NCBI RefSeq assembly: GCF_947623445.1
Contig: NC_135242.1
Span: forward strand, 7,378,001 to 7,442,000
DNA length: 64,000 nt
Direction of reading: 5' to 3'
Source: Clavelina lepadiformis
Lineage: Eukaryota > Chordata > Ascidiacea > Aplousobranchia > Clavelinidae
Made by a program: the position numbers and the translations under genes. Numbering within the stretch: position 1 is the first letter of the stretch; every line of letters begins with the position of its first letter. Positions 27,773 to 60,311 of the stretch are shown here, piece after piece. The notes below the pieces were generated by a model. It did not search any database and was not told the DNA's origin. It saw nothing but the letters and a program-made list of their open reading frames with translations.

Positions 27773-30700
27773 ATGGCAACTGTACCTATTGTTTATGTTG
27801 CAAATGAAGATGTTGGGACACTGATTAAAGGAATTGTAGCAAAAAAGAAACGTATGACCAAATACAATGTTTGATAGTTTTGTAAATCCATTACTTCTAT
27901 TATGAGTAAGATATTTAGAGATACTTAAATTTAAGTAGTAACTCAAAGAAATGAAGCTGTTGCTGTTTGAGACAACAATCTTTAAACATTGTAGTGTTAT
28001 CATATCTAGTCTAATTTGTTCTTAGTCAGGTGTCAACAAGTAATTTTGATTTAGGTGGAAATGTCAGGAAGTCTGCCAATCAGCTGGCAAAAGCATTTGC
28101 TGAGACCAAAGAAGATGCATACAGTTTGACATCAAAACCACCAAAAAAAAAGAATGAACAAAACACAGGGACAAAAAGGAGTGTTCAAGATGAATCAGAC
28201 AAAGAATTGCTTTCTGTTGTTGGTAAATCATTGTTTGTATTCGGTTTAACTATTTCATTATTGCTGGTCATAGTACAATGCTCTCGAATACAGGCAGTGC
28301 TGTTCAAACAGGAACTGTTTCAAGATAACTGCTTCCTAAAACTATTAATCAGAAAAATCAAAATTCCATATGTTACCAAATGCTCTGGAGGTATATTAAT
28401 CATTAGTAAGGCTAGAAATATGAAAAAGATTAATTTTGGAATAATTAGCAAGACCTAACATTAAATGCTGCATTTGAGGGTGTTATTCCTTTATCTTTTT
28501 AGGTGCCGTTGAACTGTTTGACGAAAATGTTTCACAGTGTGGCACTCAGGTATACTCGTTCAAAACTCCAAAGAGGAATGCACAGATGACAAAGTTTGGT
28601 GGGTAGAAATCCATTTTCAGTGCAATTGAGTGCATTGCCATGTCATTAACGGAGGACATTGGAAATCCAATGCTGTTACATTTTAAGCTTTTTATTGCAT
28701 TTTTACACCAGCCTAAGTTGATATATATTTGTAATTAAAGCTGAAGAGTCTGCAATGAAAGTTCGCATGAAACAAAGAGAAAAAGAAACCGTATGTGACT
28801 TTCTACTCAGCAGTTTCACCTTCTACAATCAATTTCTAAAACATGCCTTCATAAAAATTCATATTGCAGGAAGAAGAGTGCCAGAGCTCCCAAGCTGATA
28901 ATACTAACAGAAAAACACGGTTGAGCGGTATGCTTGTTGTGGTTGCTGTTTTTTTGCATAGCTCTTAATTGTAATTTGTGTGTAATTTAAACAGAAAAAC
29001 GAATAAAAGCGAAGCATCATCTGCGAGGAAATGTTCACTCAATTTCAACTGAAAGTGAATCGTCTGATGAGAAATTTTCAAGTTCAGATGAAGAGATATA
29101 TGCAGAACAGTATGTTGCTGTGGTGTATATTTGCTTTTGAAATACTTCGAGATACCACATATTCAAATTCTTTCCTACATTTATGTGAAAAGATATATTT
29201 TTGTATCCAACAATTACACAATGTGAAATTAGATATGCTATGGTTCTTTTAATTGCAAACCACAGTTACGTTACGTTTAATTACTTAATGAATATGGCAG
29301 AGCATCAAATAATGAAACCAAGTGTAACAAAACTTCATTGCGGTCATCTAACAGGCTGCAGCTCGTAAGTTGAAAATGATATCATATTTAAAAGTTGATT
29401 GACCATACTGAAACTATTTTGAATTTTTGTAACTTTTTTATGAACATTTACCTGTAGTTATAGATTTGTGTTTTTTCAAGTAATTTCAGCATTGAAAGCA
29501 TTAATTGACCTTTTATGTTCAATATTTGTCACTGTTGTTAAAAGCCAACAGGGCGAGAACTGTATTTTGATGCTCATGATGGTGAAAAGGAATCTCATTC
29601 ACGTCAATGTAAGACATCGGATCGGACTCTTCAGAAATTAAAAAACCCCCGCATGGCTCCAGAAGAGTTATCAAGGGCTCTTCTAAAGCACAGAGACAAG
29701 TCACAAAAAGGTAGTGGGAACAAGTATATACATCATCATCAACTCGCAAAATGATATAATTCAACTTTTAATTTAGTTGAAAGTATTCAAGCAATTGAAA
29801 GTGCTCAGAAAAAATTATCTGAAACATACAGACAATGTTACAAAAAGTGGATGTTTTATTTATGGTAAGTATTTGTGTGTTTGTTACGAATTTAATGGGT
29901 GTTAGTTATAAAGTTGTGACCACTGTGTAGTTTCACTGATTGTAACACAATAAATGTAAACCATGTCTCCTCGTCAAAAAGGGACAGTTCTTCAAACTAA
30001 CATTGATTTTGTTGTTTTAATAGTAACAACTTCAATATATTACTTCATGGGCTGGGATCAAAGAAAGATCTAATTCATGCTTTCTGCTCAGATAAACTTG
30101 CTGCACAGAATAAACTAGTTGTGAATGGATTTTTTCCAGCTCTGTCTATAAAATCTGTAAGGAGAAATTTTTCATGGAACTATTTAACAAACATATATTC
30201 ATTTCAGTATATTCAAATATTCATAAATTTTCAAAGCAAGCAATTAAATAGATATTAAATTGTTTTTAGATTTTAACCCACATTTGTGATGAGATCATAA
30301 AAGTACCACACACACAAAATCCAGAGGATCAACTGGAAATACTGCAACAGTATTTCGGAAAAGAAAGTTCATCACAAGGTATTGGAAATATGAAAAAAAT
30401 TAACGTGGAATGTGATGTTTTCAAACACGGTCTATGGAGAAGATTAGTGATACAGTAGTTATCATGTTTACAGAAAGCCTGTTTTTGGTCATTCATAATA
30501 TTGATGGAATCAGTTTGAGGAACTCACGAACCCAATCCATATTGAGCCATCTTGCCGAGCTTCCACATGTTCATATTATTGCATCAATTGATCATATCAA
30601 TGCTGCTTTAAGTGAGATGATGTAATCATAAATGATCATAGATGAGATAAAACGAAGTACTGATAGATAAGATAGATCATAGACATGATATTTCTATAAA

Positions 30701-31930
30701 CATGATCAACTGCAGTTACTTTTTTGTGTAGTTTGGGACCAAGCAAAGCTTTCTCGTTTCCACTGGCTGTGGTATGATGTCACAAATTATGCTTCATATG
30801 ATGAAGAGACCTCTTATGAAGGGTCACTTTTGTTGACTGGTGCCGGACCAGGAATGGGTTCACACGGTGCCGCTCTCGCCTTAAGTGGACTTGTTCATGT
30901 GGCAAGAAGTTTAACTTCAAATGCGAGAGGAGTCTTTCGTATTCTCACGGAGCATGAACTGGAAGATAACGATGATGCTGACACTGTCAAAGAAGGTTGT
31001 TTTATAGTTGGTAGCTTCAGAGTTTTTGATCAGTAGTTTTCTCTGGTTTGTAAATACTATGTGTTATTTTATTTCAGATTTCTCCTTTACTGATTTGTAC
31101 CAAAAATGTCGGGAACTTTTCTTGGTAAACAGTGAACTCACTCTTCGTGCGCATTTGACAGAATTTCTTGACCACAAACTTATTCAAATAAGAAAGGTAA
31201 TGCTGCGGTAACTTGAGGCTTGAAATTTAGTGATTAGCATTACGCTACATTACTCCTTGCAAGGTTACTTGATTTGAACCCATTTTATGGAACAGACTAG
31301 GAAAATAATAACAAATAAAAAGTAAACAAAAAGTTGGAAAATATCCATCATGTATATCAGTATCAGACTTAGGTAAAAATAAACATAGTGCAAAATTAAT
31401 AAGCGCTTTAGTTTTCTACAAACCACTACAAATTTAAGTGATGAAAGTTTGTGTTTAACACAAGGTGTAACTATCATAATACGTATTGTATGTGAATGTG
31501 TGGATTTGTAACTTTTTTGACGCTCTTGTTATGTGCACCTGCCTTCATTCCATTGTTGTATTTAATGCCAGGAAAAGTCGTTTTTATTTGTTTAATTCTT
31601 AGTAGATTTGGATTTGTTCGCGTTATGTTCTTGTTACAAACTGGGCTTTTCCTCTGTATGTCTGGTGAAATATGCTATTGCATTAACATTATAAACCTAG
31701 GATTAGAAATTGGAAAAATAGCCTCAACCTTTTCATGTTTGTTTCAATGTTTGTTGCGGTAATTCACACACTTGGTTTGATTAATTGAATCATATCAGTG
31801 CTTTGCCTTGTTAAATAATTATTTCTATTTTCTGCTGGTTTTACAGGGCCCAGACGGTGGAGAATATTTGTCTGTTCCATTGGATCATTCCACACTCCGA
31901 GACTATTTAGAACAACATGAAACCCATTGA
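27773..31930 (+). CDS. ORC2: Origin recognition complex subunit 2
   Basis: Fifteen exons, 590 residues (human 577): 27773-27868, 28030-28222, 28503-28598, 28741-28790, 28870-28927, 28995-29109, 29301-29364, 29545-29710, 29777-29864, 30024-30156, 30270-30378, 30474-30611, 30732-30995, 31078-31196, 31847-31930. ORC2 is part of the six-subunit complex that marks replication origins in the nucleus. The N-terminal third is low-complexity, with a basic/acidic Ser-rich stretch ([17 protein letters not shown]). The AAA-like core follows: [61 protein letters not shown], then the winged-helix part ([34 protein letters not shown]). It lacks a standard Walker A, as usual for ORC2. The first intron boundary is the least certain. 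Its 3' part is repeated inverted at 47757-49450. Confidence 0.94.
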
Positions 31931-32441
31931 TAATTTCATTGTTTTTCAATTTCAGTGGCACCATCTTTTTTGTATTAAAAAATCATTGCTTTAAATTACT
32001 TCCACTAGTTAGTAGGCTATTTGGTCAATGGTGAGCACACTAGCAATTTGATAGGTAAAACTTTTCTTGAATAACTACCTTCTATGGCTCATTTTGTGTC
32101 GACAGTTCGATTTTATAGGAGCCTTAACATTTTGTCTTGGGTGCTTTTATAATTGTACAGTATTAAATATTTTGACAATCACTACTCTTTGCAAGTGTAC
32201 TACGGAACACAAAAACCCATTCAATGATGCCAAGCATTTCATGGTTTATTATGTAATGAATTACGATTTTGAAATATTACACAAAATCTATTTTTGATAA
32301 CTTTGGTATTTCTGATCTGTTCAAATAAAATTTTTGACAAATAGTTTTAGTTATTCTACAAGGTGGCAGTAAAGCAATATAAAGAAAAAAACAGTTGTCA
32401 TTTCATGTTCCTTCTGTCGATCCCCGTAACCTTCATGATCA
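31931..32441. other. Convergent 3' ends of ORC2 and the left sushi gene
   Basis: About 0.5 kb of AT-rich DNA between two genes that converge tail to tail. It matches the right-arm DNA at 44880-45030 plus 47022-47750. No separate gene seen. Confidence 0.6.
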
Positions 32442-35400
32442 TCAATATCTTGGAGCTGCAAAAAGGTATTATGAGCATCAGAAGAAGCAATTTCCTGGGT
32501 AGCCTACGTGTATGACGTTTAAGCAAGAACTTCAAATTACCTCGAGGATATCTTCCGCAAGATGGTGTGTGAGACCACCCTCCGTTTGTGCAGTAAACTT
32601 TCTCATCTCCGTAGAGGTAATATCCGCGATGGCAGGAATAAATGACCCAATCCCCGACTTGGAACTTGTCCTTTCCTCTTGGGTTGGAGTAAATGGATCC
32701 GTACTGAGGATTCTTTGGCCTGTAACATCCACCTGAGAAACACACATATGTTGGTGTTTTGTGGCGCTATTATGCAGCCAACATCGTGACAAGTTGTTTG
32801 TCAAGAGACTTCGTAGACGACTGACCATCCACTTACGTTGACATCTCGGGACATCGTATTGCCAGCTGTAATCATCTTGGCACTTGGAGCTTGAATAGCC
32901 GGACAATATGTAACCGGCGTTGCAACGGTACTGAGCTATATCACCAGGATACCAGTACCTTTTGTCATTGTTTTCATGGTAATACCCATTATGCGGAGGT
33001 TCACGGTTGGGGCAGTATCCTAGGAAAATAAAACGGAATTTTAGGTATAGTCTATTTTAGCAAAACATCTAATAAAAACGTTCTTTTCAAACGATTTTTC
33101 TCGTTGTTAAAACTGCTGATTGTAAGGATTTACGTTTGCATGAAGGGGAATGGGACCATCCTCTACGTTGGCAATAGACTTTTGAATCGCCGTAGAGTTG
33201 ATATCCATTGTCACATTGGTAGCTGACGTAATCACCAATTTCGTATTTATCCTTGTGCGGCGGATTGGAAGAAATTGACCCGTAGCGTGGATCCGAAGGC
33301 CGGCGACAACCCACTGCATTAGCAACACGTGTAAAGACAAGCTTTGTATATAAGCTACAGTATTTTGGTTTGATACAATGCTTGTATATTTTAAGTTATC
33401 GACACACTTACATTTGCATTTTGGTACGTCATACTGCCAAGAGTAATCATCTTGGCATTTGGAACTAGAATAGCCATGCAAGATGTAGTTTGGTTGGCAA
33501 CCATAGTGAGCATACTCACCAGGATACCAGTATTTTTTGTCTTTCTGGTCATTGGAATAATATCCATATTCTGGGGCCTGGCGGTATGGACAATAACCTA
33601 AAATAATAAGAGGAAATGTGGATGTTAGTTTGCCTATATTTTCACCTATGACAAAACACAAGAAAACAAGCAATTTCATTATGTTACGTTTGCAAGTTGG
33701 TGTGTGAGACCATCCATTGTGGCGACAATAAACTTTTTCATCTCCATCTAGTTTATACCCGTCATCGCATCTGTAGGTTACGTAATCGTCGATTTCGTAT
33801 TTGTCTTTGTCAGATGGATTTGAATAAACGGATCCGTATTGCGGATTGGAAGGTCGACGACATCCACCTTATTCAGTAAATTACTTGAATATTTTGCATT
33901 ACGCAACTTAGCGGTACCACTGTGTACAACAGACAGACAGATCGTTTTACGTGATTATAGTATTAGTATGAATAAACTTACGTTTACAAGTTGGCAAATC
34001 ATATTGCCACGTGTAATCATCTTGACATTTGGAACTAGAATAGCCATGCAAGATGTAGTTTGGTTGGCAACCATAGTGAGCATATTCACCAGGATACCAG
34101 TATTTTTTGTCTTTCTGTTCATTGGAATAATATCCATATTCCGGCGCCTGGCGGTATGGACAATAACCTAAATTCATAAGTGAAATGTTGATGTCATGTA
34201 GCCTACATTTTCACCTAAGACAAAACTCAAAAAAACAAGCAATTTTATTATGTTACGTTTGCAAGTTGGTGTGTGAGACCATCCATTGTGGCGACAATAA
34301 ACTTTTTCATCTCCATCTAATTTATATCCATCATCGCATCTGTAGGTTACGTAATCGTCGATTTTGTATTTGTCTTTGTCAGAGGGATTTGAATAAAAGG
34401 ATCCGTATTGCGGATTGGAAGGTCGACGACATCCACCTTATTCAGTAAATTACTTGAATATTTTGTATTACGCAACTTAGCAGTACCACTATGTACAACA
34501 GACAGACAGATCGTTTTACGTAATTATAAGTTAGTATTAGTATGAATAAACTTACGTTTACAAGTTGGCAAGTCATATTGCCAAGAGTAATCATCTTGGC
34601 ATTTGGAACTAGAATAGCCATGCAAGATGTAGTTTGGTTGGCAACCATAGTGAGCATATTCACCAGGATACCAATATTTTTTGTCTTTCTGGTCATTGGA
34701 ATAATATCCATATTCCGGCGCCTGGCGGTATGGACAATAACCTGAAAAATGAAGATGGCTACATTAACACGCTTAATTTAATATGATTTTTAGAAAAAGC
34801 AAATTAGTTTTACAAAATACTTATTTGTCAACGTGCACGAAAACAAACTTCTCATACGTCTGCACGTTGGTGAGTGAGACCATCCTTTGTGAGTACAATA
34901 AACTTTTTCATCTCCATCTAGTTTGTATCCATGATCACAGTGGTATGTTATGTAGTCCTTGACTTGATATCTCTCCTTGTGAGGTGGATCAGATCGAATG
35001 TATCCATGATTAGGCTGGGAAGGTCGACGGCAAATAGCTGAACGAACAAGGTCATAGACTTTTTAAAGCTGACATTGTTATGGATAAATTTCACCTATTT
35101 TATATTATTGTATTAAGAGATCACTGTTATGCAATATAGTTTACCTGGAATGGGATTTTATAGTTATTTTTTATACTTTAACAACTGATTTTCAGAAATT
35201 TCTAAAAAATACGACAGACAAATATCAATAGGCTTCCAAAACAACTTAACAAGTGATCCACATCAAATCTGAAACCTTTCAAACATTTCCTGTAACTGTG
35301 GACGTTCTTACTGAGAAACTGTAGGCCACGTACGCTTTGCTGTATAGCAACTTTCATGTAAACTTAAAGTAGTTAGAAAACTTTCGTTTTACTTACGATC

Positions 35401-36214
35401 ACAAATCGGAACATCATATTGCCATCTGCCATTATCTAGGCATCGTGAGGTTTGATAACCGCGTAGAATGTAATTAAGTTGGCAACCATAGTAAGCAACA
35501 TCGCCGGAATACCAGTTTGTTTTGTCAGCTTGTTGGGCGTAATAACCGTACTCAGGCGCTCGTCTGTGCGGGCAATTGTTGGCTTGTCTAATGCCTGAAA
35601 GAATGACATGAATAACTCTCTATACAACGGAAATATATCGATGTAATCTTGCTGTAAATATCAACCTGTCCTTACCTTGGCAAGTTGGAACGTGGGACCA
35701 GCCATAACCTCGACGACAATATACAATTGCATCTCCATGTAGACGGTAACCATTGTAACATGAATAGGTGATGTATTGTCCATAAGAATATATCAACTTT
35801 GTAGCAGATAAGATTGAACCGTATTCTGGATCTTTAGGTTTGTAGCAACCAGCTGTGCACCAAAGTATATTTTGTGACTTTGGATAGTTTAAATATTTGA
35901 TTTATTTTATTTCTCAAACTACTTGAACAAGTATGTGACTAGAACAAAAAACAAACTTCTAGCTTACGTATGCAGCGAGGTGCCTGACCAGACCAATGAA
36001 AAGAGCTCAAGCAAGTTCTTTTACTCGATCCATGTAAAACGTAGCCTCGGTCGCACTTGTAGGTGACAACAGATCCTTTGGAGTAGACACCAACTCGATG
36101 AACCGGCTCATACGAGCTGTAGTCTTTTTTGTCTGGAGAGCGGCATATAAGCGACGAAACTGCGCATGCGTAGAAGAGGAGACAAATCAATGCTCCTCTT
36201 AGAACTTCTTTCAT
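32442..36214 (-). CDS. Secreted all-sushi (CCP) protein, left copy, 12 domains
   Basis: Thirteen exons on the minus strand: 35968-36214, 35676-35852, 35397-35594, 34858-35037, 34556-34741, 34257-34436, 33982-34167, 33688-33867, 33412-33597, 33134-33313, 32837-33019, 32541-32732, 32442-32455; 762 residues. All introns are phase 1. A signal peptide (MKEVLRGALICLLFYACAVS) leads into twelve four-cysteine sushi domains, one per exon. From domain 5 two types alternate: A (YCPYRQAPEYGYY, WYPGEYAHYGC) and B (GCRRPSNPRYGS, DEKVYC, GWSHTPSC). No membrane span or GPI signal is visible, so it should be secreted. Sushi arrays usually bind proteins or carbohydrates (complement, adhesion). The short last exon is uncertain; read-through of exon 12 would give a longer basic, hydrophobic tail. 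Confidence 0.9.
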
Positions 36215-36314
36215 GATGATGAACAACCAACTTTTTCTTGTAGGATATATTGTAAGATTGAACTGAATAATACAAGTATATTATTCAAATGTGCAGTATG
36301 ATTGAAATTCATCT

Positions 36315-36322
36315 CTTTTATA
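36315..36322 (-). promoter_or_regulatory. TATA box of the left sushi gene
   Basis: TATAAAAG on the minus strand, about 100 bp upstream of the start codon at 36214. The same element at the same distance is found in the right copy. Confidence 0.6.
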
Positions 36323-36565
36323 GGAATTTCAGCTGTTATTTAGGGATTCCGTTTTGTCCGAAGGCCAAATGATTTGACAAAAATACGAAGCTGCCAAAAA
36401 TAAACTTACCGCTAGATGTTGCCTAAACTTTCGCGTAATAATCAGTTTGTTACCAAACATTAATATTTGCCGTGTCATTGCTCAAGGCAATTACCAATAA
36501 ACTTATGTTAAGAAAAATGTTTGTCATTGCTGCTTTTGAGATACGATAAAAACAGTCGCGAAGAC

Positions 36566-39500
36566 AAATTAACCAAACGTTGCTAAAAATTAACCTTGTT
36601 TTTTATTTATCAAATTTTCCAGTAATTCAAAAAGTTCTCTTGTTACTTATAGGCTATAATCTTACCTATATAATTTCGGATTTTTAATTTGGCAAAATAC
36701 AATTCATCAGCTTAAAACTTACACCAGATAGTATTCGTTTCATGTTTAGTCATTTTACTACGTGAAATAAAACATTCGTAAATTGCCCTTAATTTCTCTT
36801 TTTGTTAAACATTAACATAACAACTTATATTGCATTTAGCAAGTGAATAATTTTAAAATGCTGTTAATAAATCACGGTTTATTTTATAGGGCTACATATA
36901 TTTTGTGCAATTTTTTATGTTTTCTATCAGTATGTAAACTATGATGTCATTGACTGTGTCTGTAAAATATGTTTTTTGTGTAAATCTCTAATTTATGTTG
37001 GTATTGTTTTTAGTAATACATTTTAACTTGAAAATTGATAATAACTTTCGCAAAAATTTGAGTGAGAAGTGCCTTATCCCCATCTACATTAATCTTATAA
37101 ATATTAACAAAATTTAACAGAAAAGCGACTGCGGTGTGACTCTAAACCAGGGCTTCCCAAACTGGGGGTCGCGACCCCGCAAGGGGTCGCGTAACGAACT
37201 TCAGGGGTCGCAGAGCGTATACCAATTTTACACGAAGTACAAAACACAATCAAAAAAAAATATCGTTCCAGACTAATCAACATTGAAACCGCCTTGAGAC
37301 CAGCATTAACAGATATTGAGCCACGGCTGGACTTGCTTTGTAGCAGAAAGCAATCGCACCAATCACACTAAATAAATGTGTGTGCTTTTTTGTTTCCAGT
37401 AGCCTAGACGTGTGTAAACTGTAAAGTAGTAAGTAGGCTCTGAGTTCTGGTTGCTTGAATTCGGTCTTTGCATCTCAATAAATGTCACTAATGACTAATG
37501 TATATTTCGCACTGCTAATCAATTTAAACGTGAAGGGTCGCGGAAAACTTCAGAAGTTTGAAAGGGGTCGCGAGCAAAAAAGTTTGGGAAGCCCTGCTCT
37601 AAACCATTTTCTTTTGTATATGTTTCGTCCGTATATAGTCTGTACGCACCTACGTGTGGACCTATGACGCGTATGTATACATAGGCGATATAGGACACAA
37701 CCTGAAGATTGTAAACATAAAAAGCTCCATCAAAAGACTAATAAAAATAAATTCAGAGATTAAGTAACTTTGCAAGGTTATTCCGCAACAAAAAGATTCT
37801 TGCACCATGCTCATGTGTATGTGTAAGTTAAATGATTATGTCCATCTACAGCCCTATTTTGATCATAATGCGACCGTTATCAATTTTAAAACAAGCTTTA
37901 CGCTTGAGCTTTGTCATTACTATATGTCATAACCTGTACGCAATAACATTTGCTGTTATGTCATGTACTGCAGACCAACCGATCTTTTTGTACCACTTAT
38001 ATGACTTATCAATACTTTAAGTTTCGCCTTTATTTCACTTTCACAAAAAGAAAACAGAAAGAATAAAAATATGACAGACCTATTGTAAGATAGTTTTGCG
38101 ATGCGGAAATCACATAATTTTTAACAAGGTATTATATGTTGATGCGTTATTGGGAATTTATGAATAAATCAATTTCTCTTCTAACATTTAATGTTAATTG
38201 AAATTATAATGATCTTAATTTTACACCGGGTATATGTATCAAACGTTCTAAGCAGAACTTGCAGAGAGCATTTGGGCCATTGCTGCACAAAATTATTAGG
38301 ATTTTTGTGATATTTTACATTTTAAATTTCGCGATGCTTTCTTGTCTCGTATCAATAAGGTTATATATACATTAACTATGTATTTTAATCTTATAAAAGT
38401 TGTTGTCAACATGTCACAGAAATATTGACAAGATATGCGTCGTTGTATATGATAAAATCTGTTGCAAATTTGTTGCGCACATTTATTCTTGGCAATTTTT
38501 ACTGACAGTTAGCAATGTAACTAAAATGTATCACATCACACCATAGTTTGATACCGGTGGAATTTCCTCAGTTATGCCTGGAGGTACCCGCCAATTAATT
38601 TCAGCTAATGCGACTAAATTCAGACGGACTAAAAAACAACTTGACGTGTAGCCGAACACTAAGCTTTGCTTAAATTAGCTAGCAAACGTTTTATTATTGC
38701 CTTTAAAGTGGATAAAGTGCTTTGCATGATCACGACTAAAAGAAATAAAAAAACAAATTTTACAAAGGTTTTAGCAAACTCATTGCTATATATCGCCATT
38801 TAAAAAGTACAGTATAGCATTAACTTTTCGTGCAAGAATGACGATGCAATGTAACTGTGTTTTAGAGTTGCACTTCGAGTAAAGTACACTGCACCCAAAC
38901 AGCACAAATTTTATTTCACACATTTTTTCTCTTTTAGGCCTCTTTGTACCTTCGGTCAGGGTTGTGGCGACTTTTCAAGTAAATTGGTAAGAACCCGCTG
39001 AGCTCTTATTTAACCAAAACACTTTGGTTAAAGATGATGAACGCACATAGAAAATTATACAAAAAATTAGACACGAACTTTAAAGGAACTGACAGAAAAA
39101 TTCGAAGACATTGGGTTAAAACTTTTCATTACGCAAGCATGACTCGCTTATAACGCTCAAGTTTTTTTGTTTTGAGTGCACTTGTATAGATCCTATTCTA
39201 ATAATAACCAGTCACGTATAAGGGAATACAATTTGTTATTATATACTCTTCTTTGCCTTTCCATGTAATAATAAAATCATGAGCTGCACTTTTATTACCA
39301 AGAGAGTAGAATTTTTGATTTTTACTGGAATAAAAATGATTAAGATCTATTTTTTCACAAAGTTATGTGTACTTTTTATTTTTATGGCAAAATAGCGTTG
39401 GAAAGATTTTATTTGATAATGGCAATATAAACCTTAAAATGTCCTAAAATGCGCAGGCTATTAATGCTATACAGAACATTACTGAACGCAAGGTTAAAGT

Positions 39501-39954
39501 TGTCAATTTTGCAAACAGAAATAGTCTTATAAGTTATATTTATAACAACTGATTTCTGAGTTGAAAAAATGTTGAAATACGCGGTTCAAATTATAATTGT
39601 TGTGAAACTTAATTACTTTTCAGTCTAAGCTTGTAGCAAAACCGTTTTCTATGGTTATTTGGTACTGTGGGTGTTTGGACATGTTTCACGTAACGCTAAA
39701 GAGCTCCACATATATAGAAAATGCTTTTGGAAACAAATTAAAAATTTTCCACTCACAATAACACGGGAAAACATAAGTGCTGGGAGTCGTCTTAATATAA
39801 CTTTACATTTGAACTTATGCTATTATTAGATGTTTTATGATATTGTGAAGTAAAATTTAACAAATATTATTACGTGAACCCAATAAGTCGCTTGTTGGGA
39901 GCACTTAGAAACGATTTGATAAATGATCATCATAATGCTGAATATACCGCGACT
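36566..39954. other. Unique spacer between the two inverted arms
   Basis: About 3.4 kb of AT-rich DNA between the two divergent sushi promoters with no gene I can support. It contains one hAT element (37148-37596). The arms start to match each other just outside these limits (gtcgcgaag near 36557; its complement near 39957). Confidence 0.75.
37148..37596. mobile_element. Non-autonomous hAT element (449 bp), family 2 copy B
   Basis: Ends CAGGGCTTCCCAAACT and complement, with target duplication ctctaaac at 37140-37147 and 37597-37604. Nearly the same sequence as 19560-20002 but reversed. Confidence 0.93.
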
Positions 39955-40197
39955 TTCTTCGCGACTGTTTTTACCGTTTCTAAAAAGCAGCAATGACAAG
40001 CATTTTTCTTAACATAAGTTTATTGATAATTGCTTTAAGGAATGACACGGCAAATATTAATGTTTGGTAACAAACTGATTATTACGCGAAAGTTTAGGCA
40101 ACATCTAGCGGTAAGTTTATTTTTGTCAGCTTCGTATTTTTGTCAAATCATTTGGCCTTCGGACAAAACGGAATCCCTAAATAACAGCTGAAATTCC

Positions 40198-40205
40198 TAT
40201 AAAAG
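40198..40205 (+). promoter_or_regulatory. TATA box of the right sushi gene
   Basis: TATAAAAG about 100 bp upstream of the ATG at 40306; mirror image of 36315-36322. Confidence 0.6.
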
Positions 40206-40305
40206 AGGTGAATTTCAATCATACTGCACATTTGAATAATATACTTGTATTATTCAGTTCAATCTTACAATATATCCTACAAGAAAAAGTTGGTTGTTCA
40301 TCATC

Positions 40306-43300
40306 ATGAAAGAAGTTCTCAGAGGAGCATTGATTTGTCTCCTCTTCTACGCATGCGCAGTTTCGTCGCTTATATGCCGCTCTCCAGACAAAAAAGACTA
40401 CAGCTCGTATGAGCCGGTTCATCGAGTTGGTGTCTACTCCAAAGGATCTGTTGTCACCTACAAGTGCGACCGAGGCTACGTTTTACATGGATCGAGTAAA
40501 AGAACTTGCTTGAGCTCTTTTCATTGGTCTGGTCAGGCACCTCGCTGCATACGTAAGCTAGAAGTTTGTTTTTTTGTTGTAGTCACATACTTGTACAAGT
40601 AGTTTGAGAAATAAAATAAGTCAAATAATTAAACTATCCAAAGTCACAAGATATACTTTGGTTCACAGCTGGTTGCTACAAACCTAAAGATCCAGAATAC
40701 GGTTCAATCTTATCTGCTACAAAGTTGATATATTCTTATGGACAATACATCACCTATTCATGTTACAATGGTTACCGTCTACATGGAGATGCAATTGTAT
40801 ATTGTCGTCGAGGTTATGGCTGGTCCCACGTTCCAACTTGCCAAGGTAAGGACACGTTAATATTTACAGTAAGATTACATCAATATATTTCCGTTGTATA
40901 GGATTATTCATGTCATTCTTTCAGGCATTAGACAAGCCAACAAGTGCCCGCATAGACGAGCGCCTGAGTACGGTTATTACACCCAACATGCTGACAAAAC
41001 AAACTGGTATTCCGGCGATGTTGCTTACTATGGTTGCCAACTTAATTACATTCTACGCGGTTATCAAACCTCACGATGCCTAGATAATGGCAGATGGCAG
41101 TATGATGTTCCGATTTGTGATCGTAAGTAAAACGAAAGTTTTCTAATTACTTTAAGTTTACATGACAGTTGCTATACAGCAAAGCGTACGTGGCCTACAG
41201 TTTCTCAGTAAGAACGTCCGCAGTTACAGGAAATGTTTGAAGGATTTCAGATTTGATGTGGATCACTTGTTAAATTGTTTTGGAAGCCTATTGATATTTT
41301 TCTATCGTACTTTTTTAGAAATTTCTGAAAATCAGTTGTTAAAGTATAAAAAATAACTATAAAATCCCATTCCATGTAAAAAAAAGTACAATGCACAACT
41401 ATCGAAACAAAAAGAAAAATTATAATTATTGTGCTGGACTAACATCATTCTCAAAAGTATGCTGTATTAGCGAGTCAACGATATGCTATGTGGATTATTT
41501 TGCATAATAATGACAGTCTGATAAATGCTCAATAATTTTCTATGCAGCATGACAATTTTCTAAAACCTATATTGCATAACTGTGATCTCTGAATACAATA
41601 ATAGAAAATAGGTGATATTTATCCGTAACAATGTCAGCTTTAAAAAGTCTATGACCTTCTTCGTTTAGCTATTTGCCGTCGACCTTCCCAGCCTAATCAT
41701 GGATACATTCGATCTGATCCACCTCACAAGGAGAGATATCAAGTCAAGGACTACATAACATACCACTGTGATCATGGATACAAACTAGATGGAGATGAAA
41801 AAGTTTATTGTACTCACAAAGGATGGTCTCACTCACCAACGTGCAGACGTATGAGAAGTTTGTTTTCGTGCACGTTGACAAATAAGTATTTTGTAAAACT
41901 AATTTGCTTTTTCTAAAATTCCTATTAAATTAAGGGTGTTAATGTAGCCATCTTCATTTATCAGGTTATTGTCCATACCGCCAGGCACCAGAATATGGTT
42001 ACTATTCCAATGACCAGAAAGACAAAAAATATTGGTATCCTGGTGAATATGCTCACTATGGTTGCCAACCAAACTACATCTTGCATGGCTACTCTAGTTC
42101 CAAATGTCAAGATGATTACACGTGGCAATATGACTTGCCAACTTGTAAACGTAAGTTTACTCATACTAATACTATAATCACGTAAAACGATCTGTCTGTC
42201 TGTTGTACACAGTGGTACAGCTAAGTTGCGTAATGCAAAATATTCAAGTAATTTCCTGAATAAGGTGGATGTCGTCGACCTTCCAATCCGCAATACGGAT
42301 CCGTTTATTCAAATCCATCTGACAAAGACAAATACGAAATCGACGATTACGTAACCTACAGATGCGATGATGGGTATAAATTAGATGGAGATGAAAAAGT
42401 TTATTGTCGCCACAATGGATGGTCTCACACACCAACTTGCAAACGTAACATAATGAAATTGCTTGTTTTCTTGTGTTTTGTCATAGGTGAAAATATAGGC
42501 AAACTAACATCCACATTTCCTCTTATTATTTTAGGTTATTGTCCATACCGCCAGGCCCCAGAATATGGATATTATTCCAATGACCAGAAAGACAAAAAGT
42601 ATTGGTATCCTGGTGAATATGCTCACTATGGTTGCCAACCAAACTACATCTTGCATGGCTACTCTAGTTCCAAATGCCAAGATGATTATACTTGGCAGTA
42701 CGAAGTCCCGAGATGCAAACGTAAGTTTAACTTTGACAACAGGTTTTAATCGATGTATTATAGTTTTAAGTCATTCCAACATAATTTACAAACGAGAATA
42801 ACAAATGAGTGAAATGATTTTCGTTAAAGGTGGCTGCCGTCGACCTTCCAACCCACGATACGGGTCAGTTCACTCAAATCCTTCTGACAAAGACAAATAC
42901 GAAATCGACGATTACGTAACCTACAGATGCGATGATGGGTATAGATTGGTTAGTGATGAAAAAGTTTATTGTCGCCTCGATGGATGGTCTCACACACCAA
43001 TTTGCAAACGTACGATAACAAAAATGAAATGGGTTGTTTTGGTGTATGTTACATTACAAAAACAACTGCTTTCATTTTTTCCATATAGCATCTCTTTTAT
43101 TTCAGGTTATTGTCCATACCGCCAGGCACCAGAATATGGTTACTATTCCAATGAGCAGAAAGACAAAAAATATTGGTATCCTGGTGAATATGCTCACTAT
43201 GGTTGCCAACCAAACTACATCTTGCATGGCTATTTTAGTTCCAAATGTCAAGATGATTACACTTGGCAATATGACTTGCCAACTTGCAAACGTAAGTTTT

Positions 43301-44832
43301 CTCATACTAATACTATAATCCCCTAAAACGATCTGTCTATCTGTTGTACACAGTGGTACAGCTAAGTTGCGTAATGCAAAATATTCAAGTAATTTCCTGA
43401 ATAAGGTGGATGTCGTCGACCTTCCAATCCGCAATACGGATCCGTTTATTCAAATCCATCTGACAAAGACAAATACGAAATTGACGATTACGTTACCTAC
43501 AGATGTGATGATGGATACAAATTAGATGGTGATGAAATAGTTTATTGTCGCCACAATGGATGGTCTCACACTCCAACTTGCAAACGTAACATAATAAAAT
43601 TGCATGTTTTCTTGTGTTTTGTCTTAGGTGAAAATATAGGCTACGTGACATCCATATTTCCTCTTATTATTTTAGGTTATTGTCCATACCGCCAGGCACC
43701 AGACTATGGATACTATTCCAATGAGCAGAACGACAAAAAATATTGGTATCCTGGTGAGTATGCTCACTATGGTTGCCAACCAAACTACATCTTGCATGGC
43801 TATTCTAGTTCCAAATGCCAAGATGATTACTCTTGGCAGTATGACGTACCGAAATGCAAACGTAAGTGTGTCGATAACTTAAAATATACAAGCATTGCAT
43901 TAAACCAAAATACTGTAGCCTTTATACAAAGCTTCCCTTTACACGTGTTGCTAATGCAGTGGGTTGTCGCCGGCCTTCGGATCCAAGCTACGGGTCAATT
44001 TCTTCCAATCCGCCGCACAAGGATAAATACGAAATTGGTGATTACGTCACCTACCAATGTGACAATGGATATCAACTCTACGGCGATTCAAAAGTCTATT
44101 GCCAACGTAGAGGATGGTCCGATTCCCCTTCATGCAAACGTAAATCCTTACAATCTGCAGTTTTAACAAATAGGAAAAATCGTTTGAAAAGAACGTTTCT
44201 TTTAGATGTTTAGTTAAAATAGACTATACCTAAAATTCCGTTTTATTTTCCTAGGATACTGCCCCTACCGTGAACCTCCCCATAATGGGTATTACCATGA
44301 AAACAATGACAAGAGGTACTGGTATCCTGGTGATATAGCTCAGTACCGTTGCAACGCCGGTTACATATTGTCCGGCTATTCAAGCTCCAAGTGCCAAGAT
44401 GATTACAGCTGGCAATACGATGTCCCGAGATGTCAACGTAAGTGGATAGTAAGTCGTCTACGAAGTCTCTTGACAAACAACTTGTCACGATGTTGGCTGC
44501 ATAATAGCGCCACAAAACACCAACATATGTGTGTTTCTCAGGTGGATGTTACAGGCCGAAGAATCCTCAGTACGGATCCATTTACTCCAACCCAAGAGGA
44601 AAGGACAAGTTCCAAGTTGGGGATTGGGTCATCTATTCCTGCCATCGCGGATATTACCTCTACGGAGATGAGAAAGTTTACTGCACAAACGGAGGGTGGT
44701 CTCACACACCATCTTGCGGAAGATATCCTCGAGGTAATTTGAAGTTCTTGCTTAAACGTCATACACGTAGGCTACCCAAGAAATTGCTTCTTCTGATGCT
44801 CATAATACCTTTTTGCAGCTCCAAGATATTGA
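40306..44832 (+). CDS. Secreted all-sushi (CCP) protein, right copy, 14 domains
   Basis: Fifteen exons, 884 residues: 40306-40552, 40669-40845, 40925-41122, 41669-41848, 41965-42150, 42265-42444, 42535-42720, 42830-43009, 43106-43291, 43406-43585, 43676-43861, 43960-44139, 44255-44437, 44542-44733, 44819-44832. The ATG at 40306 opens the same signal peptide as the left copy. Domains 1-4 match the left copy one to one. Then five A/B pairs follow instead of four, so it is exactly 122 residues longer. Every intron is phase 1, and exons are 180, 183 or 186 bp within the array. Each domain keeps four cysteines and the sushi Trp. No transmembrane segment is seen. The role is unknown; binding or recognition outside the cell is inferred from the fold. 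The last exon is again uncertain. Confidence 0.9.
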
Positions 44833-45030
44833 TGATCATGAAGGTTACGGGGATCGACAGAAGGAACCTGAAATGACAACTGTTTTTTTCTTTATATTGC
44901 TTTACTGCCATCTTGTAGAATAACCAAAATTATCTGTCAAAAATTTTATTTAAACAAATCAGAAATACCAAAGTTATCAAAAATAGATTTTGTGTAATAT
45001 TTTTGTTCAAAATCGTAATTCATTACATAA

Positions 45031-47021
45031 CACCATGTAACAAAAATTTAGTTGTGACGATTTTTTAATATTTTCTGAAACATATTACTGAGTAAAACAT
45101 ATTTCTGGCAATTTTTTGTCTCAAATGTTGTATAAAAATGTTATTTTAAGCTTTTTAAACTTTCAGTACCCTGTTTTTTCTAACTCTGATTGTAAATTCG
45201 TTATAACATTGGTGCAGTGTGACGTCACAATGGCCCAACATTTTAACTTCATAATTGTAGCCTATATCGTAACAATGATCATTCTTGGCATAGTCTCAGT
45301 GAGCCAGTATACCAAGGTTGCAACATTGACTATTTTATTGTTACTGGTATCTTATCAGGTTAATTACAGGTAGCGTGATTCTTGATAAATTGAGGGATGT
45401 CATCATCACGTAAATGTAAGCTGTCTGCTGATAGTTTTTGCTATGTCTGTGGTCTATACATTAGTTTAAAGCAAGTGAAATACAGAATAAAGGTAGAAGC
45501 AAAATTTTCTAACGCTTATGAACTTTATTTTGGCATGAAAATTGGTGACCAAGATAAACACTGGGCACCTCGTGTGATCTGCGGAACATGCCGATCAAAT
45601 TTGAATGGCTTGCTTAGAGGAGACCGGCATTCGATGCCATTTGCTATTCCGAGAATCTGGAGAGAACCCCAAAATCATACAGATGACTGCTATTTCTGTA
45701 TGGTTGACATTTCAAGGTTTAGAAGAACTAAAAACCGACGTGACATTGTATATCCTTCTATACCGTCTTCTATTGCACCTGTTTCGCATAGCAGTGAGTT
45801 GCCACTGCCCAAACCACCGAGCAAAAAAGCTCCAGAAGATTTAGCAGGGTCTGAAGATATTGAAAAAGACTCCGATGATGAATTCAACATATCTCATACA
45901 GACTTGATTTCAGAACCACACTTCCCAAGCCAACAAGAATTAAATGATTTAGTTAGAGACATGGGGCTCACTAAGTCAAATGCCGAACTTCTGATTTCAA
46001 GGTTGAAACAATGGGACTTATTAGATTTGTCATGTCGATGTTCTTTGTCGAGAAAAAGGCATGAAAGATTTTCAAGGTATTTTTCTGTGGCAGACTCTCT
46101 TTGCTTCTGTAGTAATGTTGATAACCTTTTTGAAGAAATAAGAATAGCTCGATCATGACCCAAAGGAGTGGCGCCTATTTATAGACAGTTCTTCCCAAAG
46201 TTTGAAATGTGTCCTCCTTAACAATGGAAACCAGTATCCATCTATACCCGTTGACCATTCTGTCCAAATGAGAGAAGATTACAAAAATGTAAAGTTTCTT
46301 CTTGAAAGTATTAACCATGCTAGATACAACTCTGTGGAGGTTCGACTTATGCTCCAGTGTAAAGAACTTGAAAATAAAATGACTACGAGAGAAGCAGAAG
46401 CATGGAATGCATTTCGAGAAGTAGTTAATTTTTTTCTCGGTAGTAAACGAAGCGATGACTATAAAGTTTTGGTGAACAATCTGATGAAGGAATACGAAAA
46501 ATTGGGATGTCTTATGTCCTTGAAAATGCATTACCTGCACTCTCACCTTGATTTTTTTAGTCCAAATATGGGTGATGTAAGCGAAGAACATGGTGAAAGG
46601 TTTCACCAGGACATTTCTGATATGGAAAGAAGATACCAAGGAAGGTGGAGTCGCAACATGATGGGGGATTATTTGTGGTCATAATACGAGAAGATTTCTC
46701 AGTTCATAGACGCAAATCACGCAAACAAAACCACTTCTGAAGTTTTTTGGAATGTTTGCAATATGGATCCTTACATAATGCATTACTAGGCTATATTATG
46801 GACAATACTTCTATGTGTTAGCGTGTTTGTGAGTCTTATACAAAATAATGCTTATTAATACTGAAAAATTTTGGGTAAAATCAGAAAAAGCGATATTTCT
46901 TGAAAATTTAGGACACTTCAGGGAAAATATTTGCATTTTTGTGATTAGTTCCGAGTAGCAAAACACAATACATAAACATTTTTAGGCAACTAAAAATTTC
47001 GCAAAATTTTGTTACATGGTG
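45031..47021 (+). mobile_element. DNA transposon copy 1 with CAC ends and TAA target duplication
   Basis: The empty site is preserved in the left arm (near 32250), so insertion limits are exact. The element begins CACCATGTAACAAAAATTT at 45031 and ends with the complement of CACCATGTAACAAAATTTT at 47021. The 3-bp duplication is taa (45028-45030, 47022-47024). Length 1991 bp. It carries a broken transposase-like gene. Confidence 0.9.
45397..46684 (+). pseudogene. Transposase-like protein of copy 1, broken
   Basis: The first frame (45397-46158, 253 codons) has an N-terminal region with paired cysteines (CYVCG, CGTCRSN, CYFC) that may bind metal, then MPFAIPRIWREP and a Pro-rich stretch. A frame change near 46150 leads to a second frame (46202-46684) with SLKCVLLNNGNQYPS, KMHYLHSHLDFF, EEHGERFHQD and YQGRWS. 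Compared with the copy at 51755-52974 a segment is missing around 46330 (the LHIKLGLMKQFVKA region). It resembles proteins of a dispersed repeat family found in other invertebrates; I cannot assign a superfamily. Acidic residues in FIDSS and GERFH are candidates for a catalytic site, as a guess only. Confidence 0.7.
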
Positions 47022-47756
47022 TAATAAACCATGAAATGCTTGGCATCATTGAATGGGTTTTTGTGTTCCGTAGTACACTTGCAAAGAGTAGTGATTGTCA
47101 AAATATTTAATACTGTACAATTTTAAAAGCACCCAAGACAAAATGTTAATGCTCCTATAAAGTCGAATTGTCGACACAAAATGAGCCATAGAAGGTAGTT
47201 ATTCAAGAAAAGTTTTACCTATCAAATTGCTAGTGTGCTCACCACTGACCAAATAGCCTACTAACTAGTGGAAGCAAATTTGAAGCAATGATTTTTAATA
47301 CAAAAGTGTGGTACTGAGCTAATTGTCATAACTAGATCTTATTCGTTCAAAATTCTCGTGCAGATCTGATGATATTATGACGTTATTGGTCGTGTTCAGT
47401 TTCCACGACACATTATTACCTCCGAAATACGTCATTCGTTACTACATCAGCGCTCAATGCGCGTTCTTAATTGTACAGTCTGGTATTAATGGAACCGAAT
47501 GAAACTCTATTCAGTGCTCTGAAAAACAGTAACTGTTTCGTTGAGAATCAATATAATTTATCAATATTGAAAACATTGACAGTGTGGTTTTGGTACTGTG
47601 ATGCTCAACTAGACTATCAGAAGTTAATGAACGCGCTATAAATGAAGTCAGACCAACCAGCAATCGACCAAGCAATATTTAGTAACAAGCAACCCTACAA
47701 CAACTAACGACTAACGACAACACGCTTGTCACTAAAAATGACAAACAATGAAATTA

Positions 47757-49450
47757 TCAATGAGCTTCATCTTGTTCTAAATAGTCTCTCAGTGTGGAAT
47801 GATCCAATAGAACTGACAAACACACTACACTGTCTGGGCCTTGTAAAAACAACAGAAAATGGAAATAAGTCCCAAAAAAATTATTTAACAAGGCAAAGCA
47901 CTGATATAATTCAATTAATCAAACCAAGTGTGTGAGTTCCCACAACAAACATTCGTTCATGAAAAGGTTGAGGCTATTTTTCTAATTTGTAATCCTAGGT
48001 TCATAATGTTAATGCAATAGCATATTTCACCAGAAAACAAACAGAGGAAAAGCCCAGTTTGTAACAAGAACATAGCGCGCACAAATCCAAATCTACTAAG
48101 AATTAAACAAATAAAAACGACTTTTCCTGGCATTAAATACAACAATGAAATAAAGGCAGGTGCACATAACAAAAACGTCAAAACAATTACATATTCACAC
48201 ATTTATATACAATACGTTTTATGATAGTTACATCTTGTGTTAAACACAAACTTTTATCACTTAAATTTGTAGTGGTTTGTGGAAAACTAAAGCGCTTATT
48301 AGTTTCGCACTTTGTTTGTTTTGAAGTATTTTTACCTAAGTCTGATACTGATATATATGATGGATATTTTCCAAGTTTTCGTTTACTTTTTATTTGTTAT
48401 TATTTTCCTAGTCTGTTCCATAAAATGGGTTCAAATCAAGTAACCTTGCAAGGAGTAATGTATCGTAATGCTAATCACTAAACTTCAAGCCTCAAGTTAC
48501 CGCAGCATTACCTTTCTTATTTGAATAAGTTTGTGGTCAAGAAATTCTGTCAAATGCGCACGAAGAGTGAGTTCACTGTTTACCAAGAAAAGTTCCCGAC
48601 ATTTTTGGTACAAATCAGCAAAGGAGAAATCTGAAATAAAATAACACATAGTATTTACAAACCAGAGAAAACTACTGATCAAAAACCCTGAAGCTACCAA
48701 CTATAAAACAACCTTCTTTGATAGTGTCAGCATCATCGTTATCTTCCAGTTCATGCTCCGTGAGAATACGAAAGACTCCTCTCGCATTTGAAGTTAAACT
48801 TCTTGCCACATGAACAAGTCCACTTAAGGCGAGAGCGGCACCGTGTGAACCCATTCCTGGTCCGGCACCAGTCAACAAAAGTGACCCTTCATAAGAGGTC
48901 TCTTCATCATACGAAGCATAATTTGTGACATCATACCACAGCCCGTGGAAACGAGACAGCTTTGCTTGGTCCCAAACTACACAAAAAAGTAACTGCAGTT
49001 GATCATGTTTATAGAAATATCATGTCTATGATCTATCTTATCTATCAGTACTTTGTTTTATCTCATCTATGATCATTTACGATTAAATCATCTCACTTAA
49101 AGCAGCATTGATATGATCAATTGATGCAATAATATGAACATGTGGAAGCTCGGCAAGATGACTCAATATGAATTGGGTTCGTGAGTTCCTCAAACTGATT
49201 CCATCAATATTATGAATGACCAAAAACAGACTTTCTGTAAACATGACAAAAATATTTAATTTATCAGCAAGTACTGTATCACTAATCTTCTTCATAGACT
49301 ATATATCAAAACAAAATTGCCATCATATACTGCACTAATTTTACTCATATTTTCAATACCTTTTAATGATCTGTCTTTTCGAAAATACTGTCGCAATGTT
49401 TCCAATTGATCCTCTGGATTTTGTGTGTTTGTACTTTTGTAACCTCATTA
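47757..49450 (-). pseudogene. Truncated inverted copy of ORC2 (3' exons 11-15)
   Basis: Minus-strand copies of ORC2 exon 15 (47757-47840), 14 (about 48512-48630), 13 (about 48713-48976), 12 (about 49090-49250) and part of 11 (to about 49450). Exons 12-14 remain open and nearly identical to the functional gene. The exon 15 acceptor has changed from acag to acaa, which would move splicing by one base and cause an early stop. There is no 5' half or promoter. Confidence 0.9.
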
Positions 49451-51619: not shown

Positions 51620-53611
51620 CACAAGGGAACACAATTTTTGTTGACTTCGATCTAAAAATTGTTTTTAACTAACTTTTGGGCGCTGAATCCAAAAATGACA
51701 TCGGTTTTTTCTCTATCACGTCAAGTTTTTGAGCTAGGCACCCACCACTTTTTCTCATAACCCACAAAAAAGTACAACATTTAAGACATCTGCGTTTATT
51801 GTATAAAACGTTTTAAGAACTACAAGCAACCGAAAGTAACTCAATGGTTTCCAAATAAACATTTGTACAGCTCTATTCTGCTCCTTAAAACGGATATTGC
51901 TTCTGCAGGACAAAAACGGGCGAGTTTTAGGGCAAAAGTTTACGCTTGTAGCTTTTCCTAGCATGTTCAAGCTGTGGGTAGTCTCGCTTAATACTGTACT
52001 CCAGCAATAGTCAGCCAGAATATGTAAGTCCCATCTTCCCTGATGTCTTTCCTCCACCACCTTCAGATCTTTGTGGAATCTTTCTCCTTGCTCATCGCTG
52101 ACCGCACCAAGGTTTTCCGGGAAATTAGCAAGATGGCTATGCAAAAAATGCATCTTGATGCTCATGTTGCAGCCGAGTTCTTTGTAGCTTTTCAATAGCT
52201 TCTGAACAATTTCGATATAATTCTCTGCCCGTGTATTCCCAAGAAATCCCTTGACAAGGTTTTTAAATGATAACCAGGCATTTTCTTCCAATTCTGACAT
52301 TGAACCACTGAAACGTTCATCTTTGATGAGTTGCAGAATTTGTGGACCATTAAATACACCAGCCTTAATTTTTTGTATTGACAGGCCAGGAAAAGCCCAG
52401 TTGCTTTCAGTTGACGATGCTTTAACGAATTGCTTCATTAGGCCGAGCTTTATATGCAGAGGTGGGAAAATAATTTTCTCTCTGTCAACAAGTGGCTCAT
52501 GTAGAATATTGGGATCACCAGGTTTAAGGTCAGATCTTGGAGGCCAGTTCTTCTCCACCCAGTGCTGATCTCGAGCTCTGCTGTCCCACATACACAAAAA
52601 TAGCAAGGGTACTTTGTGTATCCATGTTGCTGACAAAGAAGAAAACATACCATTTTAAGGTCAACAAATATGATACAATTGTGCTTGTGATATTGCAACA
52701 ATTCAATTACTCTTTTTATGTTTCCGTATTCTTCACGAAGACTAACTGAATGTGCAATTGGTACTGCACCGTATAAATTGCCATTTTGGAGAAGGACGCA
52801 CTTTAAGCTCCACTTTGAGCTGTCAATGAACATTCGCCATTCAGTTGAGTTGTAGATCGGAATTCCCAACTCCTCCAGTAACACAAAAGCTACTGTCACT
52901 TCGAAAGTACGGTAAAAAACGCAATTTCTCTCGAACGAAAGTACGATACCTACGCTCCTTTTCCAAGTAAACATTCCACGCTTTTATGAAACTATAACTT
53001 CAAAGCGAGGCAACACGTGTTTTGAGCGCACAAGTATTTTGTGTTGACAAGCTTTTTAAACGTGTGGTATAACAGAGTCGTCATCTTTTCAAGGCATTTG
53101 ACAGTTACTGATGCAAAATTGCACAATAGTGTGAAATTTAATGAACCTGGAACCACCACTCATCACTTTGCAGGGATAGGAACAGATATTATTTTATTGC
53201 TTGTCTGTTTTCCTGGAAAGTACGAATACATACATGGTTGAAAGTGGAAACCAACTAACTTCAATTTTACCATTCTTATCTAGTTTTCTTGAATGATTGC
53301 ATCCTCCAACCAAAAATGGGGGAAAAAGCATCGACTTAAATCGATGCCTGTGCCTTTTTTGCTTAATAATTCAGTTGACCCTTCTTGTATATAACTTACT
53401 ATATGATTAGCCTGTGCATTCCTATTACGTATGGAAAAGCAATACGGCTAATGTCCTGAAAAGTTGCATATTTTGGATGAATGCTGTAGAGCAAAAACTT
53501 GACGTGATAGAAGAAAACTGGCGGCATTTTTGAATTCAGCACACCGGAATCAGCCTAAATCAAGTGCAAAATCAAAGTCAACAAATTTTTTTTCAAAATT
53601 GTTCCCCAGTG
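51620..53611 (-). mobile_element. DNA transposon copy 2 with CAC ends and TTA target duplication
   Basis: Long imperfect inverted repeats of more than 100 bp: CACAAGGGAACACAATTTTT at the left and complement of CACTGGGGAACAATTTTGAA at the right, both running into a shared ATCACGTCAAGTTTTTG. Flanked by tta (51617-51619, 53612-53614). Length 1992 bp. Confidence 0.82.
51755..52974 (-). pseudogene. Transposase-like protein of copy 2, frameshifted and N-terminally truncated
   Basis: Minus-strand frame 52450-52974 has TEWRMFIDSSKWSLKCVLLQ, HSVSLREEY and GYTKYPCYFC. Near 52620 the frame changes to the second part (51755-52648) with MWDSRARDQHW, FPPLHIKLGLMKQFVKA, KAGVFNGPQI, MSIKMHFLHSHLANFPENLG and EQGERFHKDLKVVEERHQGR. 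It is homologous to the copy 1 protein but keeps the middle that copy 1 lost and lacks the N-terminal cysteine region. Confidence 0.75.
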
Positions 53612-60100: not shown

Positions 60101-60311
60101 TTGTAGAAAGGCAGAATGACCGTTGACTGCCAAACATGAAGTGCCCTGGAGAACAAGAATAACGAATTGACTGTCCCGGCCGATAACTGTTTGCTTTTGG
60201 ACTGTAAGACGTTTCCTCATAAGTACGCGGTTGAGTACAACAGTTGACAAAGGTTATCATCTGGCCTACCAGAAAACAACTCAATGCTGCAAATGCTCTT
60301 TTCCAGTGCAT
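54197..60311 (-). CDS. Secreted 16-sushi protein with C-terminal somatomedin B domain
   Basis: Seventeen exons, 1123 residues: 60068-60311, 59600-59794, 59214-59420, 58689-58961, 58364-58546, 57890-58138, 57523-57765, 57187-57366, 56775-56957, 56360-56539, 55945-56127, 55655-55834, 55366-55548, 55060-55239, 54704-54883, 54426-54611, 54197-54339. Every intron is phase 1. It starts with a signal peptide (MHWKRAFAALSCFLVGQM), then sixteen four-cysteine sushi domains. Exons 4, 6 and 7 add Thr/Pro/Arg-rich linkers before their domain (for example TETTRVQPTQRPQ). The last exon is a somatomedin B module with eight cysteines (CKNNCG, GCACDNWC, NDCCSDYKDTC). Known somatomedin B domains bind proteases, inhibitors or integrin partners. 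No membrane span. Its first exon and A/B domain types show common origin with the two palindrome genes. Exon 2 and 3 acceptors were chosen by phase. Confidence 0.9.

Follow-up and report, generated by a model that had tools for sequence, protein, structure and literature searches.

An imperfect palindrome in Clavelina lepadiformis with two head-to-head sushi genes, a truncated ORC2 copy and patchy divergence between its arms

In a 64,000-nucleotide stretch of the genome of the ascidian Clavelina lepadiformis (C3:7378001-7442000, contig NC_135242.1; the window), the 3′ half of the ORC2 gene and an adjacent sushi-array gene are present twice, as the inverted arms of an imperfect palindrome. The second ORC2 copy is truncated, divergence between the arms is patchy and the two sushi genes show constraint. 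These features are accounted for, with good though not complete confidence, by an older inverted duplication followed by drift, insertions and patchwise gene conversion, with a constrained sushi gene pair. By this account, an inverted copy of a block with the 3′ half of ORC2 and its convergent sushi neighbour would have been placed 3.4 kb away, giving a head-to-head sushi pair and a broken copy of ORC2. Afterwards the arms would have drifted, with insertions of its own in the right arm, and a difference of one two-exon unit would have arisen between the sushi arrays. In places, over lengths of up to about 0.9 kb that take in introns, gene conversion would have overwritten one arm with the other, and both sushi genes would have remained under purifying selection. 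Positions are those of the window, and genome searches covered the 209-Mb genome.

An earlier note on this DNA had described a 19-kb imperfect palindrome with arms of about 6.3 and 9.5 kb around a 3.4-kb spacer, and had asked for a comparison of the window with its reverse complement. Self-BLAST of the window shows the inverted arms, and the described anatomy holds, with the outer ends within about 20 bp. The left arm occupies 30289-36564 (6,276 bp) and the right arm 39956-49448 (9,493 bp). The spacer of 3,391 bp between the divergent sushi genes lies at 36565-39955. The inverted matches, every one with E = 0 or <1e-130, are 30289-31960/49448-47727, 31968-32251/47305-47022, 32249-34439/45030-42827, 33973-35142/42729-41563 and 35140-36564/41380-39956. 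Between the arms 270 of 6264 aligned columns are mismatched (4.3% divergence, 95.7% alike). The right arm owes its extra length to a transposon of 1,991 bp, an inserted repeat of about 0.42 kb, an intron that is about 180 bp longer than its partner in the arm alignment, and an extra two-exon sushi unit. No further copy of the arms was found, since the left arm gave six matches in the whole genome, all of them in the two arms. With inverted arms and two intact head-to-head genes, a true duplication that doubled the sushi gene, as the note had proposed, is well founded. The motif CGCGACT, seen by eye on either side of the right arm's inner junction, is too short to mean much.

The outer portion of each arm, which the note did not mention, is ORC2. 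A complete ORC2 gene with 15 coding exons and 558 amino acids lies at 27773-31930 (+), its 3′ half inside the left arm, tail-to-tail with the left sushi gene. Its product matches RecA-like_ORC2 (248 bits) and WHD_ORC2 (78.1 bits), both above cut-off, and all seven of its PDB matches are ORC2. The right arm ends inside a 5′-truncated copy at 47757-49448 (-), which comprises exons 12-15 and a portion of exon 11 that carries a 1-bp frameshift, and lacks over half of ORC2. No second match to ORC2 residues 1-331 was present in a 134-kb region around the locus, and the genome matches to the RecA-like domain number five, all at the left gene or the right copy. A tryptophan common to left ORC2 and the PDB ORC2 chains, which we take to be human, is lost from exons 12-14 of the right copy. 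Because ORC2 is complete on the left and truncated on the right, the left arm would be the source and the right arm the derived copy, and we infer that duplication proceeded from left to right.

With over half of the gene gone, the right ORC2 copy is expected to be near neutral throughout. Its divergence from the left gene is uneven. Exon 11, intron 11 and exon 15 together show 43 differences in 268 sites (about 16%), whereas exons 12-14 and introns 12-13 show 12 in 723 (Fisher test, p 5e-16). The introns alone give the same picture (17/95 vs 4/202, Fisher p 2e-6), and intron 14 is mixed (39/646). At synonymous sites, exon 15 has diverged by 0.27 (5/18.7 sites) and exons 12-14 by 0.035 (4/115.8 sites). 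The note had supposed the duplication to be recent, which it is not: a single truncated copy diverged by about 16% in some parts and by 1-2% in others rules this out. As one ORC2 copy has both high- and low-divergence parts, the percent identity of the arms does not date the duplication, which is a warning for palindromes in general.

Patchiness is also seen along the arms as a whole. A two-state model over both arms, with divergences of 2.1% and 11.7%, was better by 66 units of the Bayesian information criterion. One low-divergence tract from this model covers ORC2 exons 12-14 with their introns (left 30470-31385, right 48313-49238) and has 17 mismatches in 916 columns; a second aligner again gave 17/916. 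Another, with 9 mismatches in 809 columns, covers the sushi promoter and exons 1-2 (left 35667-36475, right 40045-40854) and includes the exon with one difference in 247 bp. The note had named gene conversion as a reason for the likeness, and this is plausible given patchy divergence that includes introns; conversion is the most likely cause of the patches. Within ORC2 the left copy probably acted as donor, because conversion in the reverse direction would carry damage into the sole complete gene.

Patches of this kind could also arise if a single duplication was followed by no conversion at all, the likeness merely tracking constraint that varies along the arms. Sushi exons are indeed more alike (55/2289 sites differ) than sushi introns (87/1477), non-synonymous change in them is low, and pN is below pS in ORC2 exons 12-14. 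The ORC2 introns 12-13, however, are as alike as exons 12-14, and exons 11 and 15 of the broken copy have decayed. Noncoding columns by themselves are clumped, with a variance-to-mean ratio of 2.11 against 0.93 expected, and none of 5000 shuffles was as high; constraint on exons is therefore insufficient alone. We consider a history free of conversion to be rather unlikely.

Several observations weigh against conversion as the explanation of the patches. It is read from patchiness between the two arms of one haplotype in one species. A test on the longest identical run was weaker than the clumping test (p 0.011 for noncoding columns, 0.042 for ORC2 intron columns). In ORC2 exons 12-14, non-synonymous change (4/403) is below synonymous change (4/116), which hints weakly that some constraint may still act on the broken copy. 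Sushi exons 1, 2 and 4 have one difference in 604 bp and their adjoining introns differ by 3.4-7.6%, so that at the sushi exons constraint may explain the likeness at least as well as conversion does. The synonymous sites of these three exons are, however, almost unchanged too (1/132). Over the tract with the sushi promoter and exons 1-2, conversion and constraint are not cleanly separable. A GC bias of conversion was looked for, and nothing clear was found in tract and flank GC or in mismatch direction, the mismatch count including some columns outside the arms.

Patches of differing apparent age would likewise be expected from a composite history, in which parts of the block were copied again in inverted orientation after an old inverted duplication, the low-divergence stretches being younger duplications. 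The patches are colinear within one continuous arm, with no extra copies or junctions, and replacement in place would in practice equal gene conversion. Such a history is very improbable. Less probable still is a functional role for the inverted ORC2 piece, in which read-through of the right sushi gene, which points towards that piece, would give RNA antisense to ORC2 and exons 12-14 would be alike because the match matters. If true, it would couple a secreted sushi protein with a replication-origin gene.

It was also considered whether one arm could be an artefact, either the second haplotype joined in by mistake or a spurious inverted copy, the palindrome being known here from assembled sequence and not from reads. 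On contig C8 of the same assembly, two stretches of a sushi cluster in direct orientation, C8:18686001-18696000 and C8:18765474-18775473, are identical at 10,000 of 10,000 positions and lie 79,473 bp apart; several genome sushi hits recur on C8 at the same spacing. That pair either arose by tandem duplication very recently or was duplicated falsely in the assembly, and in the latter case it would lend some weight to the artefact. At the palindrome itself the signs are different. The arms diverge by 4.3%, carry separate insertions and include, in one of them, a truncated and frameshifted ORC2; the transposon of the right arm is flanked by a TAA repeat, and the corresponding empty site on the left is intact. 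According to the available part of the genome report (PMC10884593), the assembly has 117-fold HiFi coverage from DNA sheared to 12-20 kb, fragments that exceed the length of each arm. Since the assembly is HiFi-based and the surrounding 134 kb contain no N, an artefact is unlikely, and we would give it very little weight.

The coding part of the left sushi gene lies at 32442-36214 (-), with 13 exons, 762 amino acids and 12 sushi domains, and that of the right gene at 40306-44832 (+), with 15 exons, 884 amino acids and 14 sushi domains. The open frames and intact splice sites that had been claimed for both copies are borne out, as every modelled intron is GT-AG and the frames are open in both exon models. 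The right protein has 14 Pfam Sushi (PF00084) stretches (360.9 bits, above cut-off). For the left protein, whose exons were checked against Pfam in part, a model derived from the two sushi genes matched 12 of 12 domains. Exon 1 was also correctly described: the copies are 99.595% identical over 247 bp, with one difference. The promoters agree in the proximal stretch 36215-36564, where 10 of 350 sites differ between the arms, and TATAAAAGAG is retained in both, about 108 bp upstream of each start codon. Each gene probably has its own TATA-box promoter and may be expressed from it.

The note had further called the product a secreted recognition-type protein. Secretion is plausible: by eye, the N-terminal leader is hydrophobic, no further hydrophobic segment is seen and a stop comes soon after the last domain. 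The products of the two genes are probably similar secreted sushi-array proteins, with 12 domains in one and 14 in the other. The recognition-type label finds no support, as non-synonymous change is below synonymous change. In the seven 1:1 sushi exons, synonymous divergence is 0.028 (8/284.2 sites) and non-synonymous divergence 0.0066 (7/1053.8), the former slightly below that of the introns (87/1477, p 0.043). Among the repeated exons (seven B-type, five A-type) the values are 0.06-0.42 and 0.00-0.08, and for exon 4, an older relative, compared with the A-type exons they are 0.44-0.53 and 0.21-0.26. Both genes look constrained, as under purifying selection. A diversifying recognition receptor is not favoured, there being no excess of non-synonymous change. 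Constraint without diversification may be taken as weak evidence on the function of the sushi proteins.

The arrays differ by a two-exon sushi unit, exons 7-8 at 42535-43105 (+), which only the right arm has; its identity to the four other units in the comparison is 75.8-76.7%. All exons from the second to the final domain exon start and end in the same phase, and exons 7-8 comprise 366 coding bases; therefore the frame survives gain or loss of the unit. Exon 8 with its adjoining introns, the query used in the genome search (exon 7 was left out), gave matches in the two arms only, at 70-88%. Because the relatives of exon 8 sit only in the arms and are at most 88% identical, loss of the unit from the left arm, which is simpler than gain, is favoured though not proven. 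For the same reasons a recent gain on the right is not favoured. Left unit 7-8 is 97.7% identical to right unit 5-6 and 93.9% to its positional partner, right unit 9-10. As it is nearer to the former, units have probably been exchanged within or between the arrays.

Because the duplication contains a pair of living genes as well as a broken part of a single-copy gene, constraint and conversion can be separated within one locus, which makes it a clean natural experiment on gene conversion between animal paralogues. In a tunicate genome with many sushi clusters, it also presents sister genes that differ by a single two-exon sushi unit of matching phase. Conversion between opposed paralogues is already known; the built-in ORC2 control is unusually clean.

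Adjacent inverted paralogues under gene conversion are described for the hsp16-1/hsp16-48 inverted modules of C. elegans, and for other C. elegans paralogues conversion extends into introns, as given in the accessible part of PMC3966223. The Clavelina locus resembles hsp16 in having opposed neighbouring paralogues around a unique spacer, with likeness ascribed to conversion and not to recency. The sushi genes are in opposite orientation, no gene was recognised between them by eye, and the patches of excess likeness include introns. Unlike the hsp16 modules as described there, the Clavelina arms are longer, less alike (95.7%) and include an unrelated single-copy gene in part, truncated on one side. 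Large inverted arms, a spacer and arm-to-arm conversion are also shared with mammalian sex-chromosome palindromes, which, from the portion of PMC8981503 at hand, have arm identities above 99% and may be far longer. The Clavelina arms, with 270 mismatches in 6264 columns, fall short of such identity, and the locus is not known to be sex-chromosomal.

For the first 390 of the 762 residues of the left protein, the best-scoring PDB sequences are complement factor H and complement receptor type 1 (CR1). The likeness lies in long runs of sushi (complement control protein, CCP) domains; it is a resemblance of domains only, without evidence of complement binding. Fester of Botryllus, which functions in allorecognition, is a further tunicate sushi-containing protein encoded at several loci; in the available text of PMC12065747 it is highly polymorphic and has an immunoglobulin (Ig) domain and transmembrane segments besides its sushi domain. 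The Clavelina sushi genes, by comparison with that description, lack Ig and transmembrane parts and look constrained. Pfam gave no Ig domain in the right protein (only Sushi and one weak Meleagrin match), and by eye no second hydrophobic segment was seen in it. CCP modules are also contained in the house proteins (oikosins) of Oikopleura, secreted tunicate proteins to which the present ones are likened by description and not by sequence (PMC3390340, in the part available). In literature searches on ascidian sushi/CCP expansion, Clavelina gene duplication and tunicate sushi allorecognition, no title or start of an abstract described this locus, and a search on factor H and conversion found nothing. 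The accessible part of PMC12373286 does not contain the word 'sushi' and names Clavelina once, as a proteome used.

The spacer had been called unique. Its 3.4-kb length stands, and among the best 40 of 235 candidates its only full-length genome match is itself; it is not wholly unique, since about 450 bp (37148-37596) are a dispersed repeat. This repeat, presumably hAT-like, has CAGGGCTTCCCAAAC inverted ends and an 8-bp flanking repeat, CTCTAAAC. At least 39 other genome matches at 93-99% were found for it (best 40 of 235 candidates scored), and self-BLAST placed a second window copy at 19560-20003. No gene was recognised by eye among the open reading frames (ORFs) of the spacer, and Rfam at gathering thresholds gave no match in the window.

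The DNA transposon of the right arm lies at 45031-47021, with inverted ends CACCATGTAACAAAA and the flanking repeat TAA, and the left arm keeps its intact empty site. Five other near-full copies at 98-99% are present in the genome. Its protein pieces matched Pfam families only below threshold (zf-AD and DNA_topoisoIV), and it was therefore assigned to no superfamily. ORFs at 51758-52983 (-) resemble, by eye, its protein pieces at 45394-46681; Pfam gave no match for 51758-52654 (-). The other right-arm insertion, seen as a gap in the arm alignment at 47306-47730 (ends approximate), is a dispersed repeat of about 0.42 kb with many relatives in the genome.

Sushi exons are abundant genome-wide, and all 150 scored, the best of 1412 candidates, passed the cut-off. 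A third sushi gene lies nearby, with 16 domain hits at 54427-60242 (-), and a fourth lies outside the window, with 22 domain hits (+) at C3:7477333-7484655; both are known as domain hits and not as gene models. Just downstream of the last sushi hit of the third gene, a Somatomedin B domain was found at 54200-54421 (-) (30.4 bits, cut-off 23.1), which is perhaps its C-terminal domain. Upstream of the same gene there is a second, smaller inverted repeat (60709-62048 and 64170-65499), 95.5% alike over 1343 aligned bp. The segment 61195-63960 has a direct duplicate at C3:7448191-7450947 (2813 bp aligned, 91%), and the window copy holds exons that by eye resemble LDL-receptor class A domains. Another direct duplication, of 6.5 kb and 99.1% identity, between L026 2374-8883 and the stretch from L026 7583 to window position 4095, enters the left end of the window and sits within a longer tandem array. 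Exons at 15699-24184 (+) resemble by eye an ionotropic glutamate receptor; the motif that is usually SYTANLAAF in these receptors reads SYTANMVTF here.

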